A stretch of DNA of 64,000 nt from Peteryoungia ipomoeae (GTDB taxonomy: Bacteria; Pseudomonadota; Alphaproteobacteria; Rhizobiales; Rhizobiaceae). The stretch covers positions 806,001 to 870,000 of the forward strand of contig NZ_STGV01000001.1 in assembly GCF_004912165.1 (NCBI RefSeq), in the 5' to 3' direction. The translations under genes were made by a program, and so were the position numbers. Below, in pieces: positions 19,484-22,388 of the stretch. The stretch's first letter is position 1; every line of letters starts with the position of its first letter. Below the pieces are notes generated by a model. That model was not told the DNA's origin. It worked only from the letters and a program-made list of their open reading frames with translations, and ran no database searches.

Positions 19484-20239
19484 TTAGGCTGCCTGACCGG
19501 TGATGTCGGCGTAACCATTGGCTTCGAGTTCAAGCGCCAGTTCCTTGTCGCCCGACTTGATGATCTGGCCCTTGTAGAGGACGTGAACACTGTCCGGCAC
19601 GATGTAATCGAGCAGGCGCTGGTAGTGGGTGATCACGACGGTCGCACGATCCGGGCGCTTCAGAGCGTTGACGCCGTCAGCAACAATCTTCAGCGCATCG
19701 ATGTCGAGGCCGGAATCAGTTTCGTCGAGGATGCAGAGCTTCGGCTCGAGCAGCGCCATCTGCAGGATTTCGGCGCGCTTCTTCTCACCGCCGGAGAAGC
19801 CGACATTCAGCGGACGCTTCAGCATGTCCGGGTTGATCTTCAACTCGCCGGCAGCTTCCTTGACGCGGCGGATGAACTCCGGCGTCGTCAGCTCGTCCTC
19901 GCCACGCGCCTTGCGCTGCGAATTCATCGCAACCTTCAGGAACTGCATGGTGGCAACGCCCGGGATTTCCACCGGGTACTGGAAGGCGAGGAAGATGCCC
20001 TTGGCGGCGCGCTCGGCCGGGTCGAGTTCAAGAATGCTCTCGCCGTTATAGAGGATGTCGCCTTCGGTGACTTCGTAGTCTTCGCGGCCCGACAAGATGT
20101 AGGAGAGCGTCGACTTGCCCGATCCGTTCGGACCCATGATGGCAGCCACTTCGCCGGCCTTAACGGTCAGGTTCAGACCGCGGATGATTTCGGTGCCGTC
20201 TTCGGCGATGCGGGCATGGAGGTTTCTGATTTCAAGCAT
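19484..20239 (-). CDS. sufC: Fe-S cluster assembly ATPase SufC
   Basis: 251-residue soluble ABC-type ATPase. Walker A GPNGSGKST is at residues 36-44, the signature is FSGGEKKR, and Walker B is LCILDETDSGLD, where the extra Glu-Thr-Asp pattern is characteristic of SufC. ATP binding drives conformational change of the SufBC2D scaffold. The ATG at 20239 has AGGAAGACAGAC before it. A GIY-YIG gene with flanking repeats separates it from sufB by 540 bp, an unusual gap in an otherwise tight operon. Confidence 0.95.
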   Translation of the reverse strand: MLEIRNLHARIAEDGTEIIRGLNLTVKAGEVAAIMGPNGSGKSTLSYILSGREDYEVTEGDILYNGESILELDPAERAAKGIFLAFQYPVEIPGVATMQFLKVAMNSQRKARGEDELTTPEFIRRVKEAAGELKINPDMLKRPLNVGFSGGEKKRAEILQMALLEPKLCILDETDSGLDIDALKIVADGVNALKRPDRATVVITHYQRLLDYIVPDSVHVLYKGQIIKSGDKELALELEANGYADITGQAA

Positions 20240-20319
20240 GTCTGTCTTCCTGTCCATCGGGCGGTTCAAGGGCCGCCTGTCGTTTCCTGTTGCGCCGCTG
20301 GGCGCCTGTTCTTCATTTC

Positions 20320-20354
20320 GTCATCCTCAGGCTCGTCCCGAGGATCTACTGCCG
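20320..20354. repeat. 35-bp palindromic repeat, left copy (REP-like)
   Basis: The 35 bases match the copy at 20715-20749 in inverted orientation at 32 of 35 positions. The unit begins GTCATCCTCAGG, continues through TCCCGAGG and ends ATCTACTGCCG. CCTCAGG and its partner CCCGAGG make an internal hairpin. It ends 2 bp from the stop codon of the GIY-YIG gene. The form resembles the extragenic palindromes that are common in rhizobial genomes. Confidence 0.88.
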
Positions 20355-20356
20355 TA

Positions 20357-20698
20357 TCAGTTATAGTCCGACCATTGCGGTGAGCTCGGGTGCGGTGAGT
20401 AGATGTTTTCGATCTCGTAAATCCGGTCGCAGAGATCGAGCCATGTCGGGTTTAACCCTTCGATCAGCTTGATCTTCCAGTCCCGCAGATAGCGCTTCAG
20501 AGACTTCTCTCGTCTGATCGCGAGGACGATGTTCGGATGCTGCTCGAACCACACCAAGAGCTTTGCATGGTATCTGGACGTAAAACCTTTCCTCACTTCA
20601 TTCCGGTGCTCCCATATGCGCCCCTCAAGGTCGCTGGTCACACCGGTGTAAATCACACCACGTGGCTTGTCCGACATCATGTAAACGAAGCCGGACAT
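20357..20698 (-). CDS. GIY-YIG domain nuclease (COG2827/URI-like), bracketed by inverted repeats
   Basis: 113 residues. Tyr6 in FVYMM and the IYTG of VIYTGV (about 16-19) form the GIY-YIG core, R27 in EGRIWEHR is the expected catalytic Arg, and E64 in REKSLKRY is the likely metal-binding Glu. The domain is complete and seems intact. Such stand-alone GIY-YIG proteins have no established role, although the fold is that of UvrC and homing nucleases. The gene lies between sufB and sufC in their direction and its stop and start are 2 and 16 bp from matching inverted 35-bp palindromes, so it looks like a small inserted unit. Confidence 0.9.
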   Translation of the reverse strand: MSGFVYMMSDKPRGVIYTGVTSDLEGRIWEHRNEVRKGFTSRYHAKLLVWFEQHPNIVLAIRREKSLKRYLRDWKIKLIEGLNPTWLDLCDRIYEIENIYSPHPSSPQWSDYN

Positions 20699-20714
20699 CG
20701 TGCATCAGCCTTGC

Positions 20715-20749
20715 CGGCAGTAGATCCTCGGGACAAGCCCGAGAATGAC
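20715..20749. repeat. 35-bp palindromic repeat, right copy (REP-like)
   Basis: The sequence starts CGGCAGTAGATCCTCGGG and ends CCCGAGAATGAC. Its reverse complement differs from the left copy at 3 of 35 positions. CTCGGG and CCCGAG form an internal hairpin. It lies 16 bp upstream of the GIY-YIG start codon and about 30 bp after the sufB stop. Confidence 0.88.
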
Positions 20750-20778
20750 GACCGCAACTGGCTGTGTGCGCCCCCTCA

Positions 20779-22248
20779 TTACCCGACCGAACCCTCAAGC
20801 GAGATGTTGATCAGCTTCTGCGCTTCAACCGCAAATTCCATCGGCAGCTGCTGGATGACGTCGCGGACGAAGCCGTTGACGATGAGCGCGATCGCCTCTT
20901 CTTCCGGGATGCCGCGCTGCATGGCGTAGAACTTCTGGTCCTCGGAGATCTTCGAGGTCGTCGCCTCGTGCTCCACCTTGGCCGTCGAATTCTTCACCTC
21001 GATGTAAGGCACAGTATGCGCGCCGCAGGTGTCACCGATCAGGAGCGAATCGCAATTGGTGAAGTTGCGCGCGTTCTCCGCCTTGCGATGCATCGAGACC
21101 TGGCCGCGATAGGTATTCTGCGACACGCCGGCCGAGATGCCCTTCGAGATGATCCGGCTCTTGGTGTTCTTGCCGAGATGGATCATCTTGGTGCCGCTGT
21201 CGACCTGCTGATGGCCGTTCGAGACGGCGATCGAGTAGAACTCGCCCTGGCTGTCGTCACCGCGGAGAATGCAGGACGGATATTTCCAGGTGATCGCAGA
21301 GCCGGTCTCGACCTGCGTCCAGGAGATCTTCGAACGCGCACCACGGCAATCGCCACGCTTGGTGACGAAGTTGTAGATGCCGCCCTTGCCGTCCTTGTCG
21401 CCCGGATACCAGTTCTGAACGGTCGAATATTTGATCTCGGCATCATCGAGCGCCACGAGTTCGACGACCGCTGCATGCAGCTGGTTTTCATCGCGCTGGG
21501 GTGCGGTGCAGCCTTCGAGATAGGAGACGTAGGCGCCTTCCTCCGCAACGATCAGGGTGCGCTCGAACTGGCCGGTGTTCTTCTCGTTGATGCGGAAATA
21601 GGTCGAGAGTTCCATCGGGCAGCGAACGCCCTTCGGGATGAAGACGAAGGAACCGTCAGTGAAAACAGCCGAGTTCAGCGTCGCATAATAGTTGTCGGTA
21701 ACCGGAACGACGGTACCGAGATACTTCTTCACCAGTTCCGGATGCTCGCGCACGGCTTCCGAGATCGACATGAAGATCACGCCGGCCTTCTTCAGCTCTT
21801 CCTTGAAGGTGGTCACGACCGAAACCGAATCGAAGACGGCATCGACGGCGATCTTCGACGTCTGCACGCCAGCCAGCATTTCCTGCTCTTTCAGCGGAAT
21901 GCCGAGCTTTTCATAGACCTTCAGAAGTTCGGGATCGACTTCGTCCAGCGACTTCGGGCCTGCAGCCGTCTTCGGCGCGGCGTAATAATAGATGTCGTTG
22001 AAGTCGATCTTCGGATAGTCGACACGAGCCCAGGTCGGCTCTTCCATCGTCAGCCAGCGCCGGTAGGCGTCGAGGCGCCATTCCAGCATCCATTCCGGCT
22101 CCTGCTTCTTTGCCGAGATGAAGCGGACGATATCCTCGGACAGGCCCTTGGGCGCCTTGTCGACTTCGATCGTGGTTTCAAAACCATACTTGTACTGATC
22201 CACATCGATCTGGCGGACCTGATCGATCGTTTCCTGCACAGCAGCCAT
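20779..22248 (-). CDS. sufB: Fe-S cluster assembly scaffold protein SufB
   Basis: 489 residues. Family blocks include [29 protein letters not shown] and [21 protein letters not shown], the last with the conserved Cys region of the scaffold. The C-terminal end [19 protein letters not shown] matches SufB. SufB builds the nascent Fe-S cluster with SufC and SufD. The ATG at 22248 has TTGGAGAACGACC before it; the longer frame to 22314 is rejected. It lies 140 bp after sufS2. Confidence 0.96.
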
Positions 22249-22388
22249 GGTCGTTCTCCAATCTTGCCGGGCCAAATTCCGGCAGCTTGTTAACGTTGGG
22301 CGGTGTCCCGCCATATTTAAGGTTTCCGAGCCATCATTTCACCCCTCTTGGCAAGGGAAAACGACGTGCGGCCCGAATTTTCGCCGCC

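Follow-up and report, generated by a model that had tools for sequence, protein, structure and literature searches.

Small GIY-YIG nuclease genes are paired, in the Rhizobiaceae and beyond, with palindromes of the repetitive extragenic palindromic (REP) kind, and each of two nuclease clades has a palindrome type of its own; of this pairing and its clade specificity we are practically certain. The case at the center of this work lies in a 64,000-nucleotide stretch of Peteryoungia ipomoeae (Rhizobiaceae; assembly GCF_004912165.1, contig NZ_STGV01000001.1, positions 806,001 to 870,000; hereafter the window, with coordinates counted from its first letter), where a 113-residue nuclease is encoded between two such palindromes in the junction between sufB and sufC. 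On balance we favor reading this unit as a REP-bounded nuclease element, that is, a structure-specific GIY-YIG endonuclease dedicated to REPs of the CGTC type and encoded between its own palindromes, and we consider GIY-YIG nucleases the best candidate enzyme for the spread of CGTC-type REPs.

The nuclease gene occupies 20357..20698 on the minus strand, a complete open reading frame (ORF) in sense with the suf operon. Its product scores 45.1 bits against the Pfam GIY-YIG model (PF01541, cut-off 22.6), the sole domain matched in a Pfam scan, and Y17, G19, R27, H31, E64 and N83 are invariant in an alignment of 33; among these we take Y17, R27, H31, E64 and N83 to be catalytic, so that the protein carries both marks of the GIY-YIG superfamily, a model score above cut-off and conserved catalytic residues. 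Against the gene at the same site in another member of the genus (G137), nonsynonymous divergence (dN) is 0.059 and synonymous divergence (dS) 0.317, and the dN/dS ratio of 0.185 points to purifying selection on the gene.

The flanking palindromes, a downstream arm at 20318..20354 (plus strand) and an upstream arm at 20715..20751 (minus strand), form an inverted pair of 37 nt with 92% complementarity, the sole inverted pair reported in 20000–21000. Each holds a REP core (20319–20348 and 20721–20750, respectively) made up of a CGTC tag, a 9-bp stem with one mismatch, a 5-nt loop and a CTA tail facing the gene. This is the form of the CGTC REPs, for which the survey by Di Nocera et al. 2013 (PMC3733652) gives a CGTC tag, an 8–9 bp stem beginning with AT, a 4–5 nt loop and a short unpaired tail, except that the tail is CTA instead of the usual CCA and that one stem position in each is mismatched. 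The palindrome is not due to chance: the window holds two copies, and none appeared in 100 shuffles. Of four strands, three gave predicted single-stranded DNA folding z-scores between –2.9 and –2.3; the plus strand of the 20318–20354 arm, which has a stem mismatch, gave –0.8. An Rfam scan of 20100–20950 returned one match only, outside the arms and below threshold (16.9 bits vs. 49). An earlier note on this DNA, made from its letters, had placed a complete 113-residue GIY-YIG gene between sufB and sufC, its stop and start 2 and 16 bp from two self-folding, 35-bp inverted palindromes of a form known in rhizobia. We recovered the gene and measured the same two distances; the inverted match was confirmed with the arms lengthened to 37 nt, the hairpin was found in both arms with the one weak strand just mentioned, and the repeat form does belong to a known REP class, one that according to the same survey (PMC3733652) is not only rhizobial.

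The pairing was assessed by a PF01541 profile search over 121 genomes of the family, and 92 small-gene loci were read among the matches listed (E about 1e–10 or better; 30 returned by the search, 60 fetched and 2 from the host genome). Sequence motifs assigned them to clades A (66, including the window gene), B (20), C (5) and D (1), with six damaged or odd genes placed in A by hand. For some comparisons clade A was brought to 146 loci by 80 named loci from other genomes, the best 80 of at least 579 by similarity to the window gene, and two of the 146 duplicate others (L035/L210 and L111/L157). A flanking inverted-repeat score, in which the 250 bp preceding the gene were matched to the reverse-complemented sequence that follows it, reached the threshold of 15 or more at 43 of 65 clade A and 14 of 19 clade B loci (one locus of each clade was left out for its short flanks), at none of the five clade C loci nor the single clade D locus, and at 53 of the 80 named loci from other genomes. 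It did so at none of 17 uvrC genes (usable at 17 of 20 loci) and none of 85 further genes at those uvrC loci; the highest score from shuffled flanks in 460 trials was 14, and offset positions in the same loci scored 16 or more in 8 of 352 cases, several of them due to the same palindromes. The REPtron-like layout, an enzyme gene flanked by an inverted repeat, is accordingly not universal in clade A or B.

Palindrome type follows nuclease clade. A-type palindromes, of the form GTCA(T/C/G)-stem-loop-stem-TC, occurred within 260 bp of 109 of the 146 clade A genes (on both sides of 67) and of none of the 20 clade B or five clade C genes, against a background of 10 in 277 windows of clade A loci and 4 in 520 at uvrC loci. 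Clade B palindromes are of the CCTCATSSTGAG type, CCTC-ended, and were found at 18 of the 20 clade B genes (both sides in 14), at 1 of 146 clade A genes and in 0 of 38 background windows of clade B loci. At the two-sided clade A loci the innermost pair had its tails towards the gene, as in the window, in 39 of 67 cases, the other orders accounting for 12, 10 and 6. The pairing that the earlier note had surmised from one unit is supported far beyond that evidence: it is specific, and involves two clades with two palindromes. REPs and enzyme co-evolve in this sense between clades; within clade A their covariation is weak (Mantel r = 0.18 over 110 loci, a value reached in 0 of 2000 permutations), and shared descent could give the same result.

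The association extends beyond the family. In a phylum sample, 96 of 398 genomes had a clade A match at E ≤ 1e–20; among the matches listed for other families we hand-picked 60 loci, of which 53 could be placed, and found an A-type palindrome within 260 bp in 32 of the 53, vs. 1 of 93 background windows, and a flanking inverted repeat in 36 of the 53. A plasmid collection gave 33 matching records, and of eight loci that we chose among them six had A-type palindromes beside the gene (Neisseria gonorrhoeae, Sinorhizobium meliloti, Azospirillum lipoferum, Sphingobium, Shinella and Aeromonas), those of S. meliloti and Aeromonas on the upstream side only by motif search; at the Novosphingobium locus a variant inverted repeat, missed by the motif search, lay beside the gene, and at the Planktothrix locus no palindromes were found beside the related GIY-YIG gene. 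This palindrome-free gene (Planktothrix agardhii p1, L416) is situated between an MmeI-type restriction-modification gene and the DISARM gene drmA. The gonococcal locus (NZ_CP119140.1 1881375–1883441, L411, a record listed as a plasmid and chromosome-sized) holds an unannotated clade A gene with repeats on both sides, the nearest 2 bp after the stop; by comparison with PMC3733652, we take these repeats to be of the dRS3 kind. Where the records annotate the family, it is as 'GIY-YIG nuclease family protein' or 'excinuclease ABC subunit C', the latter for the Sphingobium clade A gene.

Three genes of the host genome (4.39 Mb, 23 contigs) match PF01541 at E ≤ 0.01. Besides the window gene these are a second small one, at C1:916351–916572, and a 701-residue frame that we take for uvrC. 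With up to three mismatches the palindrome occurs in this genome 19 times, and the pattern read backwards 0 times. In five neighbor pairs the members stand 112–115 bp from each other with their heads inward, and two of these pairs adjoin the second nuclease gene, so that the palindrome is repeated and often stands as inverted pairs, as CGTC REPs do. Both small GIY-YIG genes sit between palindromes; for the second (L001), one lies at about 1751–1776 of the locus, before the start, and a nested one at about 1364–1409, after the stop, the latter read by eye and by inverted-repeat search and missed by the A-type motif search. A palindrome nested within another at the 3' end of a nuclease unit was seen in two genomes (L001, 1364–1409, and the 3' flank of L036).

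The number of palindromes per genome also tracks the nuclease. Among the 121 family genomes, six or more A palindromes were present in 32 of the 56 that carry a clade A gene or a fragment of one (61 matched genomes minus five matched through a clade B gene only) vs. 5 of the 65 without, P = 2e–9, and three or more B palindromes in 19 of the 20 genomes with a clade B gene vs. 12 of the 101 without, P = 4e–13; gene-adjacent copies inflate these counts, strongly at the threshold of three and less at six, which still partly includes them (in the host genome, 4 of 6 A-pattern hits are at the second nuclease gene). The crossed test of six or more A-pattern hits against clade B gave 6 of 20 vs. 31 of 101, P = 0.62. 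Cognate REP abundance thus correlates with the enzyme gene, as it does for REP-associated tyrosine transposases (RAYTs). Gene-less inverted REP pairs had near-constant spacing in some of the genomes measured, the spacings being taken from listed places in six genomes, in two of them for some hits only. One genome (G097) had 78 A-pattern hits and no clade A gene at E ≤ 1e–12; 11 of its 12 listed neighbor pairs were spaced 46–47 bp, often with two different stems. REPs may outlive their nuclease in such a genome.

Several observations suggest that units change place. Among protein pairs 80–90% identical, 172 of 186 have no flanking gene in common when the same side is compared, and among those more than 90% identical 4 of 9 have none; as the comparison is made for the same side only, it overcounts differing contexts (L044 and L209, both between the presumed ku and ligD genes, are in opposite orientation and were scored as different). 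Two copies in genome G034 (L061 and L096) are 85% identical over 434 bp of DNA in differing contexts, their homology beginning at TGTCATCC and ending at GGATGACA, which are palindrome ends. Two copies in Mesorhizobium sp. dw_380 (L207 and L209) are 88% identical over 517 bp in unrelated contexts, with edges about 7 bases or less from palindromes. Altogether 16 related unit pairs were aligned. In five of them, these two intra-genome cases included, each of the two edges coincides with a palindrome end or lies no more than about 14 bases from it. The two intra-genome pairs, whose sites are unrelated and whose edges lie at or near terminal repeats, bear this mark of a mobile element. The earlier note's suggestion of a unit that moves or copies itself is borne out to the extent that some intra-genome copies end at or near palindromes and copies stand in unrelated places; it does not extend to recent movement of the copy in the window. 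In S. meliloti pSymB (L412, 567–730), a 5'-truncated nuclease copy lies between two palindromes and adjoins the full gene, and looks like the form expected of a non-autonomous derivative.

In the window the unit separates sufB (20779..22314, minus strand), its upstream neighbor, from sufC (19484..20240, minus strand), its downstream neighbor; the name sufB follows the earlier note, and the A. lipoferum annotation agrees with it. We searched 24 genomes of the genus, the window genome included, and read 23 sufB–sufC junctions. The unit was intact in three (the window genome, G137 and G134) and carried an in-frame stop in one (G126); one further junction held an apparent deletion remnant, two a single palindrome with other sequence, seven were short (68–74 bp), and nine carried other inserts of 211–433 bp with no palindrome. 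Both junctions with a single palindrome also hold a small ORF starting MNEKVEN. The sufB–sufC junction is thus an insertion hot spot (L233–L255), and the earlier picture of a tight operon fits the seven short junctions and fails for the many genomes with other inserts or remnants. Occupied and empty junctions both exist, as the comparison called for in that note brings out, and the seven unit-free junctions together with the many copies elsewhere dispose of the concern, also raised there, that every relative might have the gene at this one place and nowhere else. No clean unoccupied counterpart of the window site came out of the genus junctions, because the short ones differ in sequence on the sufC side. 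Of 172 tested loci, 12 adjoin sufB (one counted twice, L111/L157), and among the loci compared these include every relative at least 75% identical to the window gene. An unannotated gene in a Shinella record (L417) is 78.8% identical to it, and the annotation of A. lipoferum, which belongs to another order, places a distant clade A gene between sufB and sufC. A recent insertion at sufB–sufC was rejected on these grounds, the lineage being resident there in several genera; it has long stayed at this junction and is decaying in some relatives.

Two further junctions were compared. For the presumed ku–ligD junction, in a genus that we take for Mesorhizobium on sequence grounds, matches came from 39 of 41 genomes, and both neighbors were present at 28 of the 30 loci read; the unit was found in 4 of these 28 and, in the opposite orientation, in strain dw_380. 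Unit-free relatives (L286 and L282) have a solitary symmetric palindrome there, which suggested that the unit inserts into a pre-existing palindrome. We claim no direction, because deletion between repeats gives the same picture, and did not keep such insertion as a general rule. The third junction lies between two ABC ATPase genes of another genus, presumably urtD and urtE; of 30 loci read (of 39), five had the unit, one a palindrome pair alone, six a spacing of 4–6 bp, and 18 other spacings or palindrome-free inserts. At two of these loci (L302 and L309) the insert belongs to another small repeat family: it measures about 200 bp, and its long inverted ends abound in runs of C and G.

As a mechanism for the REP-bounded nuclease element, we propose that the REP would extrude as a hairpin or cruciform, that the nuclease would nick or cut the extruded REP, and that host recombination or replication repair would use another REP-bounded copy to mend the break. 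The outcome would be copying, homogenization or loss of REPs, of REP pairs and occasionally of the REP-flanked nuclease gene. Binding and cutting of the palindrome, and cutting as the driver of copying, are steps that we infer. That the nuclease acts on its palindrome we think likely; that this action spreads REPs and units is somewhat less sure, though still probable; and the route, cutting with host repair rather than transposase-like strand transfer, is put forward tentatively. This route is favored because GIY-YIG chemistry is hydrolytic; the enzymes are not known to transfer strands, a point against the element, and any movement would need host repair.

Other points weigh against a REP-bounded element as well. 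The earlier note had held that GIY-YIG homologues lacking flanking palindromes would tell against such a unit, and these do exist in part: the motif search found no A-type palindrome at 37 of the 146 clade A genes, and clades C and D (six genes) are without flanking palindromes. In 11 of the 16 aligned unit pairs at least one homology edge falls off the palindrome, the homology ending with the gene in five, running into the flanks in three and being clear on one side only in three; no target-site duplication was recognized by eye at unit edges; and at the urtD–urtE-like junction the inserted stretch extends past the outer palindromes, so that the edges do not coincide. The nearest relatives of the window gene remain at sufB–sufC in several genera. 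As to the counts, three or more B-pattern hits were weakly tied to clade A (20 of 56 vs. 11 of 65, P = 0.016; P = 0.19 once clade B genomes are excluded), 19 of the 56 clade A genomes have fewer than three A-pattern hits, partly because the pattern covers only CTTG-loop palindromes, and five genomes have six or more A palindromes and no clade A gene, as eight have six or more B palindromes and no clade B gene.

Among rival explanations, movement of the REPs in trans by RAYT or IS200/IS605-type transposases, with the GIY-YIG gene irrelevant, has its precedent in the GTAG REPs attributed to RAYTs (PMC2817692 and PMC3116915). We rejected it as scarcely credible here: the RAYT-class domain Y1_Tnp was not found in the host genome and is present in 14 of the 121 family genomes, where it does not predict palindromes (six or more A palindromes in 6 of 14 vs. 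31 of 107, P = 0.36), the link between nuclease and palindromes persists in genomes without Y1_Tnp (27 of 47 vs. 4 of 60), and according to their survey (PMC3733652) CGTC REPs do not flank tyrosine transposase genes. Nearly as improbable is a passive role, in which recombinogenic REPs carry any gene that lies between them and the nuclease is a common passenger. The same junctions do hold other small inserts, most of which, however, have no palindrome at sufB–sufC and urtD–urtE; inverted repeats flanked none of the control genes, and two clades with two distinct palindromes and almost no crossing are not what indiscriminate carriage would leave.

Two other readings, each unlikely in our judgement, assign the nuclease a function without REP spreading. 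It might be a free-standing homing endonuclease that cuts unoccupied alleles (sufB–sufC, ku–ligD, urtD–urtE) and is copied through homology of the flanking genes, the palindromes being incidental ends or terminators. Recurrent residence at sufB–sufC in several genera and, as a distant protein, in A. lipoferum of another order speaks for this, as do alleles both with and without the unit and the fact that GIY-YIG homing enzymes are well known (PMC1564403); it leaves unexplained why palindrome type goes with nuclease clade, why the genome-wide number of palindromes tracks the nuclease, and why some intra-genome copies in unrelated sites end at palindromes. Alternatively, the nuclease might be a cellular caretaker, a cruciform or hairpin resolvase kept for numerous REPs, or the product of an auto-regulated gene with REPs in its own mRNA. 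The signature of purifying selection on the window gene and the Slx1 fold matches would suit such an enzyme, and the correlation of palindrome number with nuclease fits either causal direction. Yet a caretaker has no need to sit between REPs, as 67 of the 146 clade A genes do with A-type REPs on both sides, and these genes often change place, one same-site copy (G126) being broken, as mobile genes often are.

The broadest statement, to which we give slightly more credence than not, is that small GIY-YIG nucleases would be the missing enzymes of CGTC REPs (clade A) and of CCTC-ended palindromes (clade B), with a chemistry unrelated to that of RAYTs, and would be responsible for the spread of many alphaproteobacterial palindromic repeats and of dRS3-type repeats elsewhere. 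REP palindromes are numerous in many bacterial genomes, and RAYTs are the proposed movers of the GTAG class; the mover of the CGTC class was left open by its dedicated survey (PMC3733652), and the clade-wise pairing makes the question directly testable in a small system that consists of a 30-nt hairpin and a protein about 100 residues long. REP systems would then have arisen with two unrelated enzyme chemistries, and a widespread small GIY-YIG protein family would have a role. Our search of the open-access literature found nothing on a Neisseria protein of this kind with a part in DNA uptake and no paper linking GIY-YIG nucleases with REPs, the latter in keeping with the earlier note, which had thought the link between this nuclease class and the repeat not established; in the available texts, COG2827 is not named in PMC1564403, and the CGTC term occurs in PMC6006769 and PMC12306157 in reference lists only.

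Among known systems, the nearest solved relatives of the window nuclease are the small GIY-YIG proteins of UPF0213 (1zg2, BH0048; 1ywl, EF2693). The AlphaFold model (pLDDT 90.9) retrieved these at fold ranks 1 and 4, and UPF0213 proteins and Slx1 were its nearest matches, none at E ≤ 0.001; in a sequence comparison 1zg2 was the closest solved chain (E = 8e–9). Slx1 processes branched DNA (title of 6seh), which would suit a cruciform substrate for the window nuclease, whereas the latter is a single small domain. GIY-YIG homing endonucleases of the I-TevI type share the catalytic domain and the habit of small genes changing place between conserved genes; they differ in that here no intron is known, the 113 residues leave no separate DNA-binding domain and the palindromic ends are matched to the clade. 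The CGTC REP superfamily, which includes Neisseria dRS3 and Rickettsia RPE-6/RPE-4 (PMC3733652), has the CGTC tag, AT-starting 9-bp stem, 5-nt loop and short tail of the window palindromes; its survey found no associated transposase, whereas here a nuclease gene stands between the repeats, including those of the dRS3 kind in N. gonorrhoeae, and some annotations in the survey may correspond to the clade A family, as the Sphingobium 'excinuclease ABC subunit C' would suggest. Closest in behavior are the RAYT-REP systems (REPtrons and REPINs), in which REP type is likewise matched to enzyme lineage, REP number tracks the gene and gene-less inverted pairs occur. A RAYT, however, is a Y1/HUH tyrosine transposase acting on GTAG REPs, whereas the enzyme here is a GIY-YIG nuclease of other fold and chemistry, with CGTC or CCTC ends and no Y1_Tnp in the genome; the system works like RAYT-REP and is not one.
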